From the NCBI GenBank assembly GCA_902789175.1, contig CADANF010000019.1, positions 1 to 41,941 of the forward strand: a stretch of 41,941 nt of DNA, in the 5' to 3' direction. Made by a program: the position numbers and the translations under genes. Origin of the DNA: an uncultured Lachnospiraceae bacterium. GTDB taxonomy: Bacteria; Bacillota; Clostridia; Lachnospirales; Lachnospiraceae. The notes beneath the pieces are model-generated. The model searched no databases, was not told where the DNA came from, and saw only the letters and a program-made list of their open reading frames with translations. Shown piece by piece: positions 6,665-14,735 of this stretch; position 1 is the stretch's first letter, and every line of letters begins with the position of its first letter.

Positions 6665-6704
6665 AAAAAAGGGGTGAGATTTGTTTTCACTCTTTTTTTT
6701 TGGA
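6665..6704 (+). terminator. Intrinsic terminator after the GH13 gene
   Basis: An A-rich arm ending in GGGGTGA (6665-6677) can pair, with G-U wobbles, with TCACTC followed by a run of T. It closes the 1.4-6.65 kb operon and lies before the ribosome site of the next gene, which argues against starting that gene inside it at 6674. Confidence 0.6.
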
Positions 6705-6751
6705 CACAGAATAAACAAAAAAATGATGCACTATATAAGGGGAGGTTTGAT

Positions 6752-9355
6752 ATGGGTGAGATTAATGAAGATGAGCTTAAAAAATTAGCATATGAGATTG
6801 ATGAATTAGGTGGAAATCCTTTAAGCAAATTAGAGAGTATATTAAAACTCCTTCCATCCAATATTTATATTAAGGATAAAGAGGGAAGATATCTGTTTGC
6901 AACCCAGTATTGGCATCATCTGGATATGGGAGAAGATAATGGACATTGGTCTATTGCAGGAAAGACGGATCTTGAAGTAAGAAAAGATAAAGAAAATGCG
7001 CTTATTGCCATGGAAAGTGACAAAAGAGTAATTGAAAGCGATAAGGGCACAAGCTATGTGTTAAATATCAATCTGGACAATAAGCAGGAATATTTTAAGG
7101 TAATAAAAGAGCCTATCCATGACGACGAAGGAAATGTAGTTGGAATAGTTGGGCTTATTTATGATGTGACTGAAGAGGAGACTATAAGGATCAGCCTTGA
7201 GAAAGAGTCTTTATTTGATTCTCTTACAGGTTTAAGAAATAGAAGAGCTTATGATCTTTATATCGAAGAAGTAGAAAAAGGAGAAAATCTTCCTGTCAGC
7301 TTTATAGTTGTTGATTGTAATGATCTTAAGGAAACAAATGATACCTTCGGTCATCTTGTTGGGGATGAATTAATCAGAATGACATCGGTAGTTCTTAGGG
7401 ATGTACTTCCTGAAAGATTTCAATTATTTAGGACCGGAGGAGATGAGTTTGTTTCCATCCTTCCAGGAATAGATATTAATCAGGCGAATAAATATGCTGA
7501 AGAAATAATCGAACTTGAGCATTCTTTCAGGATTAGAAATAATACTTTAAGTCTGGCTATTGGAACAGCCTGTTGGGATAACAGGGATATAGATATCAGA
7601 GATATTATAAAAGATGCTGATATGGCAATGTATTCTAATAAGGAAATATTAAAAAGAAATGACGGAAGAATAAAAAAAGAAGATAGACTTATAAATCCCG
7701 AATTTAATCCATTTTTAGAGGCTTTAAATAAGAGTGTTGATACAGTAAGTGCTGTCAGTGAAGGGTTAAAAAGTATTGGAGGCTTTATAAGACTTGGAAA
7801 ACTTACAGTAACCCTTTATCAGCCAATAAGCAAATATACGCCTATGGGTGAAATGATGGAAAAAACTATCTATCTCACAGAAAAAGAAGTGTCACAGGAA
7901 AGTGATTATGTGAGAGAAATCCATATTGAAGAAGGTGGGATGGTTGTATTTAAGGGTTATGTCATTAAGGGAGAAGATTCATTTACCTATAATGAAAGAG
8001 CTGACCTTAATGCAATAATAGATATCATCATGCTTCATGGAGCCAGAAACAGACTTATTTCCAAGCTTAAGATGATAAGTCTTACCAACTATCTTACAGG
8101 TCTTCCAAATTCAGGTGGGTTTATAAATGAGATAGTTAATAAATTAAATAATGGGGACATAATAAGATTTGATTCTTATTTTATCAATTTACGTGGGTTT
8201 GGAATAATAAATCGTAAATATGGCAGAGTTGAAGGAGATAATTGTGTTAAGAGATATGCAGATAAGATAAGTAAGGAACTTGTAAAGGGTGAAGTGCTTT
8301 CACACTTTGGCGGCGATAATTTTGCTGCCCTTATTTATAAAGACAGGAGAAAAGAGTTCCTTAATTTCATATCTTCTCTTCAGATCAGCGCATATCGTGG
8401 TCCTTTTGAGGATAAGGTAAGAGTATATTCAACGGCAGGCTTATATCCTATTAATGAATTTGAACAGCCGGAGGAGATCATGACAGCTTGTTCTGCGGCT
8501 TTATCCATAGCAAGAGCTCAGAGAAAAGATGTGGTAGTCATTAATCCTGAAATGCATAAGCAGATCATTTTAAATAAGATGCTGATGCAGGAATTTTCTG
8601 ATGCCCTTAAAAATAATGCCATAGAAGTATATTATCAGCCTAAGGTGGATATTAGAACAAATGAGATAATAGGTGCCGAGGCTCTTGCCAGATGGAACAG
8701 AGATAATGATATTCTTCTTCCTGCAAAGTTTATCTCAATATTGGAGAAAAATGGACATTCACTAGAACTTGATCTTTATATGCTAAAAAAGGTATGTGCA
8801 GATATAAAAGGCTGGCAGGACTTAGGAAATGATACTGTTCCTGTTTCAGTAAATTTTTCCAGAAGAGACATTTGTGATGAGGAAAGAACACCGAAGGATA
8901 CAGCTAATATGATCTTATCTGTAATAGAGTGTGCAGGAATAGATCCTGGTAAGATAATGATCGAAGTAACTGAGACTGTTGATGAAACTGAGCAAAAACA
9001 GTTATTTGAATTTATGACAGAGCTTTGCCTTGGTGGCATAAATACGAGTATAGACGATTTTGGAACAGGTTATAGTTCTTTATCTATCTTAAGAGATTTT
9101 CCAATATCTGAGATTAAGATTGATAGAAGCTTTATAAATTATGAGAGATTGGGAAAAAATGACGAGATTATAATCCAGAGTATTATCACAATGGCAAGGA
9201 AACTGGGAATCGATGTTATAACCGAAGGTGTTGAAACAGAGAATCAGATTGAATTCTTAAGAAATCTTGGATGTTACAAAGTACAGGGGTTCTTATATGA
9301 TGAACCTCTGACAAAATATGAGTGGGAAAGAAGATTAACCCGCGGTGGATACTAA
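6752..9355 (+). CDS. PAS-GGDEF-GGDEF-EAL cyclic-di-GMP signalling protein
   Basis: An 867-aa protein. The start at 6752 is chosen because AGGGGAGG lies 6 bases upstream; an in-frame ATG at 6674 falls inside the preceding terminator. Order: a PAS-like domain (about 35-145), a first GGDEF with intact GGDEF at 229-233 (diguanylate cyclase signature, no RxxD inhibitory site before it), a second degenerate GGDEF reading GGDNF at 520-524, and an EAL domain with EAL at 643-645, IEVTET, DDFGTGYSSL, KIDRSF and TEGVET all present. The EAL domain is probably an active cyclic-di-GMP phosphodiesterase. No membrane segments are evident, so it is likely a cytoplasmic bifunctional regulator. It is transcribed alone and followed by a strong terminator. 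Confidence 0.9.
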   Translation: MGEINEDELKKLAYEIDELGGNPLSKLESILKLLPSNIYIKDKEGRYLFATQYWHHLDMGEDNGHWSIAGKTDLEVRKDKENALIAMESDKRVIESDKGTSYVLNINLDNKQEYFKVIKEPIHDDEGNVVGIVGLIYDVTEEETIRISLEKESLFDSLTGLRNRRAYDLYIEEVEKGENLPVSFIVVDCNDLKETNDTFGHLVGDELIRMTSVVLRDVLPERFQLFRTGGDEFVSILPGIDINQANKYAEEIIELEHSFRIRNNTLSLAIGTACWDNRDIDIRDIIKDADMAMYSNKEILKRNDGRIKKEDRLINPEFNPFLEALNKSVDTVSAVSEGLKSIGGFIRLGKLTVTLYQPISKYTPMGEMMEKTIYLTEKEVSQESDYVREIHIEEGGMVVFKGYVIKGEDSFTYNERADLNAIIDIIMLHGARNRLISKLKMISLTNYLTGLPNSGGFINEIVNKLNNGDIIRFDSYFINLRGFGIINRKYGRVEGDNCVKRYADKISKELVKGEVLSHFGGDNFAALIYKDRRKEFLNFISSLQISAYRGPFEDKVRVYSTAGLYPINEFEQPEEIMTACSAALSIARAQRKDVVVINPEMHKQIILNKMLMQEFSDALKNNAIEVYYQPKVDIRTNEIIGAEALARWNRDNDILLPAKFISILEKNGHSLELDLYMLKKVCADIKGWQDLGNDTVPVSVNFSRRDICDEERTPKDTANMILSVIECAGIDPGKIMIEVTETVDETEQKQLFEFMTELCLGGINTSIDDFGTGYSSLSILRDFPISEIKIDRSFINYERLGKNDEIIIQSIITMARKLGIDVITEGVETENQIEFLRNLGCYKVQGFLYDEPLTKYEWERRLTRGGY

Positions 9356-9498
9356 AAAAGAAATAGATTAAATGGCCAATAGCCCAAAAAAGGCAAGGTC
9401 CGAGCGCACTAAGAATGTGCTTTCGGGCCTTGCCTTTTTTGATGTTATGGCCATGGAACTGTATTGTTTTTAAGCCTTTCCTTTTTTTGTTATGGCCA
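9354..9498 (+). repeat. Left copy of ~145-bp inverted repeat bracketing the bacteriocin cassette
   Basis: Read on the + strand this segment is near-identical to the reverse complement of 13046-13190. Shared landmarks in order are an A-run, TTAAATGGCCA, TAGCCC, a hairpin arm, the loop region GCGCACTAAGAATGTGC, the second arm, GATGTTATGGCCATGGAAC, TATTGTTTTTA and GTTATGGCCA. Within the left copy, GTTATGGCCATGGAAC occurs twice (9444-9459 and 9489-9504, the second running just past the shared end). There is no transposase in either copy. The pair could be the ends of a mobile cassette or the product of a local inverted duplication. Confidence 0.85.
9385..9440. terminator. Bidirectional terminator inside the left inverted repeat
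   Basis: A-run, GGCAAGG (9392-9398), CCGA (9400-9403), GCAC loop GTGC, TCGG (9423-9426), CCTTGCC (9428-9434), then T6. It is a long stem flanked by A6 and T6, so it can act in both directions. It terminates the PAS-GGDEF-EAL gene and insulates the bacteriocin locus. Confidence 0.8.
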
Positions 9499-9541
9499 TG
9501 GAACATTAAAAATTATATTTTTACAAAATAATAATATTCTG

Positions 9542-9608
9542 TTGACAAAATATAAAATGGTGCGCTTTTAAATTTTGTGATTGACTTTTGGTAAATGGAA
9601 ACTATAAT
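9542..9608 (+). promoter_or_regulatory. Distal promoter region (P1) of the bacteriocin locus
   Basis: TTGACT (9581-9586) and TATAAT (9603-9608) are separated by 16 bases, close to consensus. A further TTGACA lies at 9542-9547, with a weaker -10 candidate (TTTAAA or similar) downstream. Transcription from about 9615 would give a leader of roughly 280 bases before the bacteriocin gene. Confidence 0.55.
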
Positions 9609-9678
9609 ATTTTTTAGAGGATGTTTTTTACATGGATGATTGGTGCAGTAAATGAACACAGACGGGGGAGGTTTTTAT

Positions 9679-9714
9679 ATGTTGAGGGTAAGAATTCCAA
9701 ACTTTTCCAGTTAA
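9679..9714 (+). CDS. Possible 11-aa leader peptide upstream of the bacteriocin gene
   Basis: An ATG at 9679 opens an 11-codon frame (MLRVRIPNFSS, stop 9712-9714) behind a very strong ribosome site, GGGGGAGG at 9664-9671, 7 bases away. A smaller frame (MDDWCSK, 9632-9655) lies just before it behind AGAGG. Such a good ribosome site on so short a frame could mark a leader or signal peptide, or be chance. There is no secretion signal. Confidence 0.3.
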   Translation: MLRVRIPNFSS

Positions 9715-9741
9715 TTGTTTAATTATTTAATATGGTATAAG

Positions 9742-9847
9742 GCAATAATTTTATTGCATTATATAAAAAAGGACTCTGGATTAAATCGCGAATAACCAGA
9801 GTCCAAAACCCTAGCACTTTAAGAAAAAGTACTAGATAAAGTATACT
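9742..9847 (+). promoter_or_regulatory. Structured leader, operator-like dyad and proximal promoter (P2) of the bacteriocin gene
   Basis: This part of the 538-base gap (9356-9893) holds three hairpins: GCAATAA-TT-TTATTGC (9742-9757), GGACTCTGG (9771-9779) with CCAGAGTCC (9796-9804), and CTAGCACTT (9811-9819) with AAGTACTAG (9827-9835, one mismatch). The last overlaps a candidate -35, TTAAGA (9819-9824), set 17 bases before TATACT (9842-9847). The dyad could therefore be a repressor site over P2, while the two upstream stems fold in the P1 transcript. Neither has a clear T-run. Confidence 0.45.
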
Positions 9848-9893
9848 GCTTTTTCTTATAAGTGTAAATAATAACAAAGGAGATATTAGATTT

Positions 9894-10211
9894 ATGAGAA
9901 AATTCAAGAAAATGATTTCGGCAGTGGTTCTTTCTGCTATGTTATCATTATCAATCGCTGGGGCAGTAAGTGCCAAGGTTATTGATTCAGATCATGGACA
10001 TTTTGATGGAGGAATAAGAGGGGATTATGTCTATTCATCTTACTATGATACAGATTATAATTGGTATTCAGCAACAGCTATAGGACAGAAACGTAATAAA
10101 ATAAAATACAAAATAGGTCAGCGTGAATTTGGAAGAACAGCCTTTGTGACATCTTTAAAAAAAGGAAGTGGAAATGAAGCCTGGTATGATTTTGGAGGGG
10201 GAAAACATTAA
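9894..10211 (+). CDS. Lactococcin 972 family bacteriocin precursor
   Basis: A 105-aa precursor with a Sec signal peptide (MRKFKK, hydrophobic core, A-V-S-A cleavage after residue 27), leaving a 78-residue mature peptide without cysteines. The mature part follows the lactococcin 972 pattern: an early GG with aromatic and basic residues, Y-S-S-Y-Y, Y-S-A-T-A, a basic middle, and W-Y-D-F near the end. Lactococcin 972 is a Sec-secreted, unmodified peptide that binds lipid II and blocks septum formation. The two downstream genes are the usual partners of this family. The tail after the terminal aromatic block is GGGKH, an extension compared with the lactococcal peptide as I recall it. AAGGAG precedes the ATG by 11 bases. 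Confidence 0.82.
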   Translation: MRKFKKMISAVVLSAMLSLSIAGAVSAKVIDSDHGHFDGGIRGDYVYSSYYDTDYNWYSATAIGQKRNKIKYKIGQREFGRTAFVTSLKKGSGNEAWYDFGGGKH

Positions 10212-10224
10212 GTAATAGATTTGT

Positions 10225-10258
10225 AGGGCTATCTTTATGTAATAGATAGCCCTTTTTC
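10225..10258 (+). terminator. Terminator between the bacteriocin gene and its transport/immunity genes
   Basis: GGGCTATC (10226-10233), loop, GATAGCCC (10245-10252), then TTTTT. It lies 14 bases after the bacteriocin stop and before the DUF1430 gene. Partial read-through would keep the peptide message well above the immunity/transport message. Confidence 0.8.
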
Positions 10259-10280
10259 TTAAAATAATAAGGTAGCATGT

Positions 10281-12389
10281 ATGAAAAAAAAGACTATAGT
10301 ATTCGGACTTTTGATATTAAATATATTAATTATGACATCTATTCTGATGGCTTCTTTTTCTGTTCAGTCAGAGGAGAGTCTTACCAAAGGAAAGATTAAA
10401 TTAACATTTCTAAAACCAAATTCTAAATCAAATAAAGAGGCTTTAAAACAGATATATGAAACAGCTAATAGGTATAATATAGATTTGCTTCTTGAATATT
10501 ATAATGAAAAGGGCGAATTGGATTATTATTATATTTATAAAACTCCTGAATCATGGCAAATGGATCTACAAGGGGGAAAACTTGAAGAGGGAATAATATA
10601 TTCTACAAAACCGCAGCGAGATGAAAAAAAAATATATGGTATTTTTTATGAGACTTATACGGAAAGATTAGTTCCCTTTGAAAAAATATCAGAGATAAAG
10701 GACATAAATCTCTCTACAGTATCAATTTGGATTCCGTCAAAGTATAAGACTATATATAGTCAGTTATTAACTAAAATGGCATATGAAGAGTCAAATCGAC
10801 AAGGTGGAGTGGTATACGATGAGAGTATTAATTTAAAGATATTGTTAGTTGTAATGACATTGTTTTTCCTTTTATCAGTGGTCATTTATTCTTTTTCAAG
10901 AAATTCAGAATATTCAATCTGTAAGACGCAAGGATATTCTCCTTTTGATATATTAAGAATGGAATATAAGGAAATAATAATTCCATCTATAATGGTCATA
11001 GGAATAGAAAGTTTATGCATAACTGTTTTTTTATCATCAATATATAATCTAGGCACAGCAGGAGTATTCTTTCTAAAAAATGGAAGTTATTATATTCTTC
11101 TATATGGAATTTTTTTTGTGATCTTTTCTTTGGCAGTTATATATGTTTACAGTATTGTTGGAATTCTTGATATAAAGGGAAAGAATTTAAACAGATTTTT
11201 GATCGGTATAAGTGCAGTTTTAAAATTGCTGGCTTTAGTAATCATATGTATTAATTTATCTCAGATAACAATTCAGGTGAAAGAATTATTTAAGGATATA
11301 GAGATGTATTCTAATTCAAAGAAAATGTTTGATGGGATAGCAGATCTGCAGTTTTCAGATGGATCAAGAGATACTGAAAGTAATGAAAAATATATTGCGG
11401 AGAAATACTTGGATTTTCTTGAAAATACAGATGAAGTATTTGTTATGGAACTGCCTAATTTAGATTATTTAGATTTTCAACCCTCGGATGAAGAAATGAG
11501 GGAGAGGCTTGGACCAGAACTATATAGAGACTATCTGGAAGAGAAAAAAAATCATGCTGAATTTGGTAGAGTAAGTATAGGTTATTTAAATATTAATGAT
11601 ATTTACCTCCTTGATGGAAGAAGATTAACTCCGGATATGATTGATGTGAAAAAAAATAATTATCTTGTCCCTGAGGGATATGATTTTACTGTGGCAGAAA
11701 AACAGTTTAAGAAGTATTTAAATATAGACGCTAATTTTATATATTATGACAGCAATTGTGAATTTTATGCATATAATCCGACCATATCAAGAAAAAGTGA
11801 TGGGAAAGAACAAAGATTATTCTTGGAAATAATAAATCCAGATTGGTATAGACAAAGGATGATTACAGATCCGGAAGCGGAAGAAGAAGGTTCTGTAACA
11901 GAAATGATGGGATGGACTTATTTTACATATGATAAAGATAGTGAATTATCTGCTTATGAACAGATTTATGACAGCGTTAATAAGTATGATCTGACACCAA
12001 ATATGTTTGAGGCCTCAGCGGTTTCTCAGATTTTTTATGAAGGATTATATGGAAATATAAAATACAGCATTGGTCTGATCACAAACTCGATCATATATAT
12101 CATCTCTTATCTGATATTGCTTTTTTATGCAATAAGTCTTTTGATCAATAACCATACGAGAGAGATTATCATAAAGATTAGAGAAGGATATTCATTTATT
12201 AATATGTTCTGGTTACATATTTTTTTGCTTGCATATCAGGTACCTGTTCTAATCCTTGCAAGTATTAGATGGAACATTAATATATGGATTGCGTTATCTG
12301 CTATTGTTGTGGATATTCTGCTATTTATACTGATGTCGAATCGCATCGTTAAAAAGAAGAATTTAGCAAAGCTGGAAGCAATTAAATAG
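10281..12389 (+). CDS. Bacteriocin-associated integral membrane protein (DUF1430 / TIGR01654 type)
   Basis: A 702-aa membrane protein with one N-terminal helix (about 5-27), an external segment, a block of four helices (about 186-206, 230-252, 264-290 and 301-325), a large external domain (about 340-590) and three C-terminal helices (about 593-620, 640-660 and 665-690). This split layout, like the FtsX/MacB permeases, and the placement between a lactococcin-972-like peptide and its ATPase match the bacteriocin-associated membrane protein family. Its role is taken to be immunity and/or export together with the ATPase. The start follows AAGGTAG. Sequence is very AT-rich, more so than the metal operon downstream. 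Confidence 0.8.
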   Translation: MKKKTIVFGLLILNILIMTSILMASFSVQSEESLTKGKIKLTFLKPNSKSNKEALKQIYETANRYNIDLLLEYYNEKGELDYYYIYKTPESWQMDLQGGKLEEGIIYSTKPQRDEKKIYGIFYETYTERLVPFEKISEIKDINLSTVSIWIPSKYKTIYSQLLTKMAYEESNRQGGVVYDESINLKILLVVMTLFFLLSVVIYSFSRNSEYSICKTQGYSPFDILRMEYKEIIIPSIMVIGIESLCITVFLSSIYNLGTAGVFFLKNGSYYILLYGIFFVIFSLAVIYVYSIVGILDIKGKNLNRFLIGISAVLKLLALVIICINLSQITIQVKELFKDIEMYSNSKKMFDGIADLQFSDGSRDTESNEKYIAEKYLDFLENTDEVFVMELPNLDYLDFQPSDEEMRERLGPELYRDYLEEKKNHAEFGRVSIGYLNINDIYLLDGRRLTPDMIDVKKNNYLVPEGYDFTVAEKQFKKYLNIDANFIYYDSNCEFYAYNPTISRKSDGKEQRLFLEIINPDWYRQRMITDPEAEEEGSVTEMMGWTYFTYDKDSELSAYEQIYDSVNKYDLTPNMFEASAVSQIFYEGLYGNIKYSIGLITNSIIYIISYLILLFYAISLLINNHTREIIIKIREGYSFINMFWLHIFLLAYQVPVLILASIRWNINIWIALSAIVVDILLFILMSNRIVKKKNLAKLEAIK

Positions 12390-12415
12390 TAGAAGAGGGG
12401 AAAAATATACTAATT

Positions 12416-13042
12416 ATGAGCGTTATTAATTTAGAAAATATTTCAAAGTCCTATGGACATCATATGGTTTTTAAGGATTATAATCTTTCCGTAGAAGAAG
12501 GAGAATTTGTAGCGATCTGTGGAGAAAGTGGAAAAGGAAAGACCACATTGCTAAATATCATGGGAATGATAGAAAAAGCTGATAAAGGAGATCTTTATCT
12601 GTTTGATAAGAAAAATCCTGATATCAGAAAGCCAAGTGGAAGAAAGTTGCTAAGAACTGAAATGACTTACGTTTTTCAGAACTATGGCCTAGTAGAGGAT
12701 AAGACAGTTCAGTACAACTTAAATATTGCATCACATTTCACGGATGTTACCGAAAAGGATATTGAAGAGGTTTTAACGAAAGTTGGACTGGATAAAAATA
12801 TATTAAAAAGTAAAGTATATACTCTTAGTGGTGGAGAACAGCAGAGAGTTGCTATAGCAAGAGTATTCCTTAAGAAATGTAAATTACTGCTGGCAGACGA
12901 ACCAACAGGAAGCCTTGATGCAGGAAATAAGGAAATAGTTATGAAACTATTTGAAAAGTTAAACAAAGAAGGAACAACTATAGTAATGGTAACTCACGAT
13001 GAAGAAATCCTCAAATACGCCACCAGAATAGTGGAGTTATAA
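12416..13042 (+). CDS. ABC transporter ATPase, lactococcin 972 group
   Basis: A 208-aa stand-alone nucleotide-binding subunit with Walker A GESGKGKTT, Q-loop VFQNYGLV, signature LSGGEQQR, Walker B LLLADEPTGSLD and switch His in VTHDEE. The MacB/LolD-like short form fits the ATPase that accompanies DUF1430 proteins (TIGR03608 type). It follows that gene by 26 bases. AGAGGGG lies about 14 bases before the ATG, a long spacing, but no better start is visible. The stop (13040-13042) is only 3 bases from the right inverted repeat. Confidence 0.9.
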   Translation: MSVINLENISKSYGHHMVFKDYNLSVEEGEFVAICGESGKGKTTLLNIMGMIEKADKGDLYLFDKKNPDIRKPSGRKLLRTEMTYVFQNYGLVEDKTVQYNLNIASHFTDVTEKDIEEVLTKVGLDKNILKSKVYTLSGGEQQRVAIARVFLKKCKLLLADEPTGSLDAGNKEIVMKLFEKLNKEGTTIVMVTHDEEILKYATRIVEL

Positions 13043-13045
13043 AAT

Positions 13046-13190
13046 TGGCCATAACAAAAAAGAAAAGTTATAAAAACAATATGGTTCCATGGCCATAACA
13101 TCAAAAAAGGAAAGGCACGAAAGCACATTCTTAGTGCGCTCGTACCTTTCCTTTTTTGGGCTACTGGCCATTTAAACTATTTTCATTTTT
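13046..13190 (-). repeat. Right copy of ~145-bp inverted repeat
   Basis: This is the reverse-complement partner of 9354-9498. The outer end (13164-13190) is coding sequence for the last residues of the MATE transporter, and its TAG stop (13161-13163) is within the repeat. The left copy has matching but non-coding sequence. This suggests the left copy was made from the MATE 3' flank, or that both are ends of one element that inserted at the MATE stop. It holds one full GTTATGGCCATGGAAC (13084-13099, minus strand). Confidence 0.85.
13103..13157. terminator. Bidirectional terminator inside the right inverted repeat
   Basis: A6, GGAAAGG (13109-13115), ACGA, GCAC loop GTGC, TCGT, CCTTTCC (13145-13151), T6. 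It separates the convergent ABC ATPase and MATE genes. Compared with the left copy, two base pairs differ and both remain paired (C:G there, A:T here). Confidence 0.8.
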
Positions 13191-14522
13191 TTTGCTTAGG
13201 CCATCCCAAGGCCCTGTTGTATAAAAATAAACTGACATTCCAGCAGCTATAGTCCATCCTATTGGCCAGGCACACCATATTCCAGTGGATTTTAGCGCTG
13301 TATGGGAAAGAATTATGGCAAGTATCACTCTGAGTATAAGATCTGTAAAGGTTGAACACATAAATTTTCCCATCATGTCTGAACCGCGGAGAAAACCGTC
13401 GGCTACAAGCTTTGCTGATATAATGAGATAAAATGGAGCAACTATTCTAAGGAAGATTACTCCTGAATGCTGAGCTTCGAAAGAAGGATTATCCATAAAG
13501 AATATAAGGAGATATTTTCCTAAGGTTGTATATATTATGATCAGTGGTATGGAAAGGATCCATATCATTTTAAGGCCGGCTTTAAAACCTTCAGGGATTC
13601 GTTTATATTTACGGGCACCGATATTTTGAGCAGCATAGTTTGAGATACCATTTCCAAGGGTTGTAAAGGAAGTGATAACCAAATTGTTAAGCTTGATTGC
13701 AGCGCTGTAACCTGCCATGATTCCTGGACCAAAGCCATTTATAAGGCGCTGGATTATGATATTTCCGATAGAGATAAAACTTTGCTGTAAAATACTTGGG
13801 ATTGCTACTTTGCTTATCTTAAGCAGTAGTGTAAATGAGAAAAGCTGGAACTTTCCTTCGTTTGGGATAGCTTTAAGTCTGATAAATATTACAATAAGAG
13901 CAAGAAAACAGCTGATTCCCTGGCAGATAAATGTTGCCCAGGCAACTCCTGCAACGCCCATATTAAAACCTGCAACAAACCAGATATCCATTAAGATGTT
14001 TGATACAGAAGATGCTGCAAGAAAATAAAATGGAGTCCTGGAATCTCCCATAGCTGAGAAGATTCCTGTTGCTATATTGTAGAAAAGAACAAATGGAAAT
14101 CCCCATATATAGATATCCAGATATATTTTTGAATCATTAAAAACTATTGAAGGAGTCTTTATCAATCTAAGAAGATCCGTAGCAAAAGCAGTTCCAAAGA
14201 TCATTAATATCATACATATCACACCACTCATTATCATGGCAGTTGATATAGCAGATTTCATATTATTATGATCTTTAGCACCATAAAAAACGGAAGTGAT
14301 CACGGAACATCCTATATTACACCCAAATGCAAATGCAATAAAGATAAGGGTTATCTCATAACTGTTTCCAACTGCTGCAAGAGCATTTTCGCCGATAAAT
14401 CTTCCGGCAATAAGGCTGTCGGCTATATTATATAGCTGTTGAAAGATAATGCTTCCAAATAATGGCAGGCAGAATGCCCAGAGAACTTTATCGGGTTTTC
14501 CAACAGTAAGATCTTTATTCAT
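13161..14522 (-). CDS. MATE family efflux transporter
   Basis: A 453-aa polytopic membrane protein with about 12 predicted helices in two similar halves. The N-terminus (PDKVLWAFCLPLFGSIIFQQLYNIADSLIAGRFIGENALAAVG) is typical of the DinF/NorM-like MATE branch of Clostridia. These are Na+ or H+ coupled exporters of drugs or metabolites. GGAAG lies about 8 bases before the ATG on the minus strand. The last nine codons and the stop lie in the right inverted repeat. Its convergent position next to the bacteriocin locus is not evidence of a role in bacteriocin export. Confidence 0.92.
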   Translation of the reverse strand: MNKDLTVGKPDKVLWAFCLPLFGSIIFQQLYNIADSLIAGRFIGENALAAVGNSYEITLIFIAFAFGCNIGCSVITSVFYGAKDHNNMKSAISTAMIMSGVICMILMIFGTAFATDLLRLIKTPSIVFNDSKIYLDIYIWGFPFVLFYNIATGIFSAMGDSRTPFYFLAASSVSNILMDIWFVAGFNMGVAGVAWATFICQGISCFLALIVIFIRLKAIPNEGKFQLFSFTLLLKISKVAIPSILQQSFISIGNIIIQRLINGFGPGIMAGYSAAIKLNNLVITSFTTLGNGISNYAAQNIGARKYKRIPEGFKAGLKMIWILSIPLIIIYTTLGKYLLIFFMDNPSFEAQHSGVIFLRIVAPFYLIISAKLVADGFLRGSDMMGKFMCSTFTDLILRVILAIILSHTALKSTGIWCAWPIGWTIAAGMSVYFYTTGPWDGLSKKNENSLNGQ

Positions 14523-14735
14523 ATCATCAACTTCCTTTCATTCTTACATAGGATTAACACACAATTTCTTATTATATTCCTATCAAAGATGATTGTAAAA
14601 AGGAAAAAATACAGATATTATAGATATCTGGTATAACGTCACTTAAATTATTATATAAAAAAACATATGAAATGCAGAGAAAATATGGATAAAAATAAAG
14701 AGTAAAATTAGGAACATATAAGGAGAGAAAAAATA

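Follow-up and report, generated by a model that had tools for sequence, protein, structure and literature searches.

A predicted lactococcin-972-type bacteriocin cassette among dispersed, terminator-like hairpin repeats in an uncultured Lachnospiraceae bacterium

We analysed a stretch of 41,941 nucleotides (hereafter the window) of contig CADANF010000019.1, assembly GCA_902789175.1, from an uncultured Lachnospiraceae bacterium, in which genes for a small secreted peptide, a permease and an ABC (ATP-binding cassette) ATPase lie between two inverted copies of a hairpin repeat, and compared the locus with other genomes of the genus. G000 denotes the genome of the window, G018, G047 and G039 the other genomes of the genus that carry the repeat, and C a contig. 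The features of the locus are these:

6674..9355, + strand: left flank, PAS-GGDEF-EAL protein, not part of the closely matching stretch described below
9354..9498, - strand: left inverted arm, a copy of the dispersed hairpin repeat, from arm alignment and folding
9507..9738, + strand: upstream segment, common to both G047 cassettes and G018:C28
9581..9608, + strand: sigma-70-type promoter, TTGACT-16-TATAAT, present also in three relatives that lack the peptide
9771..9865, + strand: part of the peptide-gene leader with two hairpins, from folding and alignment
9894..10211, + strand: secreted 105-aa peptide, lactococcin-972-like
10281..12389, + strand: 702-aa permease, a remote relative of TIGR01654 (bacteriocin-associated 7TM) with a weak FtsX match
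12416..13042, + strand: 208-aa ABC ATPase, TIGR03608 (L_ocin_972_ABC), profile score above cut-off
13046..13190, + strand: right arm, another copy of the dispersed hairpin repeat, between the convergent ATPase and MATE genes and holding the MATE stop codon
13161..14522, - strand: right flank, MATE transporter, likewise not part of the closely matching stretch

The two arms (9354-9498 and 13046-13190) align in inverted orientation over 134 nt without gaps at 89%, and over 145 bp at 90%. This bears out the inverted repeats reported in an initial annotation of the window, whose term "near-identical" was slightly strong at these values. Each arm alone forms a long imperfect hairpin (z -8.1 to -10.6 relative to shuffles, both strands), and a degenerate core pattern of the repeat family, with up to three mismatches, matched the window at the two arms only and none of 100 shuffles. 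The peptide, membrane protein and ATPase genes lie between the arms as first described; on the plus strand there is no further open reading frame (ORF) of 50 aa or more, and the ORF list and profile searches revealed neither a transposase, whose absence had been noted, nor an invertase between the arms. The stop codon of the MATE gene, at 13161, falls within the right arm. Upstream of the peptide gene, the promoter matches 11 of 12 consensus positions and ranks first of 21 sites, shuffles yielding equally many sites, and the leader region (9610-9893) folds at z -3.8. Rfam models gave no match at gathering score over 9300-13300, the best being sub-threshold miRNA models on the hairpins. The upstream element (9560-9760), considered as a possible wider regulon, was confined to the same locus in three genomes, apart from a single 22-base match in a fourth. 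The two hairpins at 9771-9865 have a similar layout upstream of a broken cassette in G000:C36 and could form an attenuator.

Our results support the assignment of the locus to the lactococcin 972 type, as the initial annotation had proposed; antibacterial action is predicted from its sequence. The link rests on three comparisons. The gene order peptide-permease-ATPase is identical in the window and in the lactococcin 972 operon of the plasmid pBL1 (NC_004955), which likewise encodes a small peptide, an integral membrane protein and an ABC ATPase. A profile-profile comparison (hhalign) of five peptides or remnants from the genus with seven family members gave 95.2% probability (E 2.6e-8, signal regions included). 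BLASTP of the window peptide against an annotated Macrococcus member gave 31% identity over 94 aa (E 5e-8), a single pair picked by eye. Besides these, the ATPase scored 255.4 bits against TIGR03608, passing the cut-off of 254.85 by half a bit. The secretion signal of the peptide was read by eye. An AlphaFold model built from three sequences had a mean confidence (pLDDT) of 37.9 with every residue below 50, the fold for comparison being the beta-sandwich of PDB 2LGN; the window peptide had no meaningful match among solved structures, and a peptide from a different genus in the family matched lactococcin 972 (2lgn) at E 0.5 only. PF09683 was silent in all 61 genomes of the genus, and equally so in 14 control genomes. 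The peptides of G048, G044 and L104 were not counted as individual family members, since none beat its own shuffles in a small lactococcin hidden Markov model (HMM).

The permease had been called DUF1430-type. It has no direct match to DUF1430 in the Pfam search, and what stands of that label is a match by two remote relatives only, one of them below its cut-off. A permease paralogue in G047, 44-45% identical, reached 73 bits against TIGR01654 (E 1.6e-20), also below the cut-off. Permease relatives were detected in 5 of 99 genomes, all within this genus; with the second permease as query, hits came from 2 of 397 genomes of the family, that of the window included. Across the order, 9 of 392 genomes gave a match to TIGR01654 at E 1e-10, and one of the four upstream peptides scanned at such loci passed TIGR01653.

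The window cassette differs from pBL1 in several respects: it lies on a chromosomal contig, it is flanked by hairpin repeats, its peptide and permease are too far diverged for the curated models, and related species retain the permease-ATPase pair without the peptide. The initial annotation had found a Lachnospiraceae host surprising. That surprise does not hold, as excerpts of a published description of mediterrocin from Mediterraneibacter gnavus (PMC12345188) already place a lactococcin-972-family peptide in this family of bacteria, with DUF1430 and ABC proteins in its cluster and 18% identity to the lactococcin 972 core; such a host is therefore not new. According to the same excerpts, on which rather than on sequence our comparison is based, the mediterrocin cluster differs in having a regulator and mobile elements. 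Repeat-bounded lactococcin 972 cassettes appeared in no title among the best 20 of 43 papers on lactococcin 972 immunity and ABC transporters, nor among the literature listed on lactococcin 972 in Lachnospiraceae, on rumen bacteriocins and on Rhs or toxin-cassette repeats.

A search for the repeats in the host and its relatives, which the initial annotation had suggested, showed that they belong to a dispersed family. We found 22 copies in 4 of 61 genomes of the genus (6 in G000, 9 in G018, 6 in G047 and 1 in G039), at several unrelated places; partial copies in G018:C28 are outside this count. In G000 the six strong copies are the two arms and four on contigs C1, C6 and C61, each of these four downstream (3') of a small ORF, itself preceded by what we take, from its core motif, to be an Rhs tip. 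Pfam gave no family for these putative tips; on C6, model searches placed RHS repeats solely at the opposite end of the contig. In G018 a single ORF separates one copy from a Tox-ART-HYD1 tip, and that copy adjoins an RHS-repeat protein. By our reading of the neighbours, 12 of the 22 copies lie beside toxin-related units, namely 6 beside a bacteriocin cassette and 6 beside an Rhs-like or toxin-antitoxin unit. An exclusive tie to toxin loci was rejected, the other 10 copies not adjoining such units. In G000:C61 (3381-5754, L039), L040 and L041 a copy follows each unit of Rhs-like tip and small ORF, and contigs C1, C6 and C61 terminate in Rhs-like tips, which suggests an array that broke the assembly. 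In G047 (L080, 535-1173) a RelB-like and ParE-like toxin-antitoxin pair lies between an Rhs-like tip and a repeat copy.

The position of the copies points to a role at gene ends. The repeat is 3' of a gene in all 20 testable copies. The 20 copies with ORFs on either side comprise 8 convergent, 12 co-directional and no divergent gaps, compared with 7, 76 and 13 among 96 repeat-free gaps from the same and other stretches, a convergent excess (Fisher p 0.0006) that is overstated, the eight convergent copies representing four distinct sites with orthologues counted repeatedly. In the stem, counted on 20 of the 22 copies (two with runs of N excluded), two-sided changes occur at five pairs, and neither this number nor the covariation score was reached by any of 500 shuffles; related copies may exceed shuffles without any structure, and the covariation is support rather than proof. 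An A-tract before and a T-tract after a stable stem at gene 3' ends have the form expected of bidirectional intrinsic terminators. The simplest reading, and the most likely one, is that the repeat would act as a bidirectional terminator.

Repetitive extragenic palindromes (REP) with their associated Y1 transposases (RAYT), like other dispersed intergenic palindromes, are short intergenic hairpins in many copies with a narrow taxonomic range. The window repeat shares these properties, and Y1 transposase-like genes are present elsewhere in all four repeat-bearing genomes. It differs in that no copy is near the Y1 loci examined, and the tracts on either side fit a bidirectional terminator. Around five Y1 loci, searched together with flanks of at most 1.5 kb, we found matches of 9-15 bases only, and the repeat was rejected as a REP element of a RAYT, no copy adjoining the Y1 gene at these loci. 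Viral contigs contained no exact match to the core pattern. G018, G047 and G000 each carry an open frame of 268 aa that matches a Y1 transposase (L111, L112, L114); G000 has two further Y1 matches with stops and G018 one fragment.

We compared the site between the EAL and MATE genes in the four genomes. In G039 both genes are present with their stops 17 bp apart, and neither cassette nor repeat is there, the kind of relative without the interior that the initial annotation had proposed to look for; the gap holds an ordinary hairpin terminator, read by eye, and with 61% EAL identity G039 looks like an outgroup. The same site holds cassettes in G000, G018 and G047. In G047 two stand in tandem, and perhaps there is a third, because the ATPase ends on C38 and C61 differ at 12 of 360 bases. 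The ATPases of the two G047 cassettes (L044, 3222-3848 and 1-484) are about 96% identical over 161 aa beside 45% for the permeases, which suggests either a recent fusion or gene conversion. A second site lies behind a radical-SAM gene. There G018 carries a permease-ATPase pair that has a repeat downstream only, G000 a broken cassette, and G039 no cassette; the G047 contig ends at this site.

The cassettes are far more alike than their surroundings. Between G018 and G047, in 150-bp windows, the permease, the ATPase and a gene of 253-257 aa are 89-100% identical, compared with 78-91% for EAL and MATE, and the ends of the match fall inside repeat copies on both sides. Divergence at synonymous sites (dS) is 0.10 for the permease and 0.024 for the next gene, compared with 0.93 for EAL and 0.83 for MATE (median 0.51 of 42 gene pairs; the ATPase is left out, having been paired with the other G047 copy). 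Between G000 and G047 the permease has 0.17 and the flanks 0.87 and 0.81 (median 0.60 of 68 pairs). The right repeat of the window aligns to the G018 copies after the ATPase and before MATE, sharing 13046-13100 with both, the pattern expected if two direct copies had recombined and the 253-aa gene had been lost.

That there was no exchange, the cassette having been inherited vertically and kept similar by constraint or the flanks having been swapped for divergent alleles, seems unlikely. Flank replacement does happen here: between G000 and G018 the EAL gene (6674-9355 vs L043) has dS 0.66 beside 0.04-0.14 in surrounding genes, a separate allele replacement. Against constraint stands the low divergence at synonymous sites, which extends to the next gene, and against swapped flanks the fact that several other genes of the G018-G047 pair match the flank values of 0.83-0.93, while the cassette is far under the median. 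Two further differences were observed near the MATE gene: a second MATE gene in G018 (L043, 619-2022) and G047 (L124, 3164-4543) is missing in the window at 14523-14735, and G018 instead lacks the neighbouring phosphatase gene.

In the orientation of the window, the flanking copies read -, + in G000, +, + in G018 and -, +, + in G047. The inverted arrangement of the pair is thus not conserved and is incidental, because copy orientation differs at the same site between genomes. The initial annotation had proposed a cassette gained, moved or inverted as a unit by its box of repeats. Gain, loss and exchange with match ends in repeats agree with the first part of that proposal, whereas the inverted pair as the moving or inverting device is not supported, given a dispersed repeat, direct copies in G018 and a second-site broken cassette that has no repeat. 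Phase variation by inversion of the segment between the arms is highly improbable: although arms of 145 bp at 90% could recombine, no invertase lies between them, the G018 copies are direct, and the permease and ATPase have the same direction relative to EAL in all three genomes. We also consider it quite unlikely that the repeats are the ends of a transposon-like or helper-moved element with the cassette as cargo. The arms do terminate near the flanking genes, G039 has a site with neither arms nor cassette, and Y1 transposase-like genes occur elsewhere in all four genomes; yet no transposase lies inside the arms, single copies occupy several sites without such cargo, copy orientation varies at the same site, the Y1 loci and viral contigs gave the results described above, and the broken cassette at the second site is without a repeat. 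A composite or miniature transposable element was rejected on orientation and on the lack of a transposase between the arms.

Six cassettes were found in G000, G018 and G047, and only that of the window has a whole peptide gene. G047 has two different peptide C-termini, both cut at the residue that corresponds to W57 in the window peptide and each preceded by the same upstream segment; no peptide remnant was found in G018 at either site; in G000:C36 the signal alone is left, and the permease and ATPase are broken. The permease is intact in 5 of the 6 cassettes and the ATPase in 4, with one cut by a contig end and one broken; of the five that lack a whole peptide, four retain an intact permease and three an intact ATPase, the ATPase of the fourth being the one cut by the contig end. 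Promoter hexamers and spacing are the same in 4 of the 6 cassettes (the window and three peptide-less ones at this site) and absent at the second site. The ratio of nonsynonymous to synonymous divergence (dN/dS) is 0.175 for the permease between two peptide-less lineages, a share of whose divergence may be older than the peptide losses, and 0.07 for the ATPase between G000 and G018, indicating purifying selection on the pair.

These observations favour self-protection (immunity) as the role the pair would have, because the peptide was repeatedly lost while the permease, mostly with promoter and ATPase, was retained. A less likely alternative, though one with more in its favour than those above, is that the pair serves to export or sense the peptide, or another substance. 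TIGR03608 bears the name "putative bacteriocin export ABC transporter", and according to excerpts of a 2024 paper (PMC11796350) no lactococcin 972 locus has had the function of its permease and ATPase verified; on the other side, the peptide carries its own secretion signal, by eye, and the permease is intact, with low dN/dS, in the four cassettes just mentioned. The same excerpts describe a similar case in pneumococcal streptococcin B (scbABC), where a natural lineage without the peptide gene retains scbBC. There the competence regulatory region is lost, whereas here the promoter is retained in three relatives at this site. That lineage without scbA was inhibited, and its scbBC was not self-activated in the tested conditions (PMC11796350), which cautions against taking every retained pair as active.

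The explanation we prefer, with a probability of about 0.65, is a bacteriocin cassette with a protective pair in a locus that recombines between dispersed terminator-like repeats. The Sec-secreted peptide would be antibacterial, and the permease-ATPase pair would shield the producer. The repeats would stop transcription 3' of genes in both directions and, being alike, would provide homology at the cassette edges, so that homologous recombination could swap cassettes between species, stack them in tandem or lose them. The peptide gene would erode easily, the permease, usually with promoter and ATPase, being kept, as one would expect if the pair gave an immunity that pays without the toxin.

Several results weigh against this explanation. 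The initial annotation had proposed profile searches for the peptide and the 702-aa protein, and while the ATPase passes its model, these two do not: the peptide has no match in Pfam or NCBIfam up to E 1 (PF09683 and TIGR01653 included), and the permease, aligned full-length, reaches 20 bits of the 189-bit cut-off of TIGR01654. In the small HMM the mature peptide scores 8.3 bits, equalled by 3 of 2000 shuffles, and two peptides of the hhalign profile (G048 and G044) do no better than their own shuffles. As for the repeats, further pair types in the stem are no better than shuffles (360 of 500), 10 of the 22 copies have no toxin or immunity neighbour, and a terminator pattern scan did not list the repeats, presumably owing to an interruption of the stem close to the loop. 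As for exchange, a single 150-bp window between G018 and G047, at the repeat after the ATPase, is 70% identical; window and G047 cassettes form a mosaic of 81-100% identity; the broken second-site cassette of G000 has no repeat; and other gene runs of low dS lie away from this site, so that exchange is not unique to it. G018 and G047 are metagenome-assembled, and the matching stretch of G047 is split between C61 (left part) and C38 (right part) and may not be continuous there, for which we lowered our confidence from 0.68 to 0.65. Finally, the dN/dS of the permease (0.175-0.198) lies above the range of 0.005-0.159 in the neighbouring and control genes used for comparison.

A more elaborate possibility is that the locus is a cassette store, in which signal-less C-terminal toxin modules, each with its own permease-ATPase pair and bordered by repeats, would be stored and become active once recombination joins them to a promoter-signal module. 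It comes to mind because the two toxin C-termini of G047 both start at W57 behind the same upstream segment, and because the repeat in the window genome also follows putative Rhs tip-immunity units, which are a known swapping system; we regard it as a long shot.

Under the preferred explanation, loss of the peptide with retention of the pair amounts to a natural experiment that predicts immunity. If true, repeat-bounded exchange would be a simple, transposase-free route for bacteriocin units between gut species.

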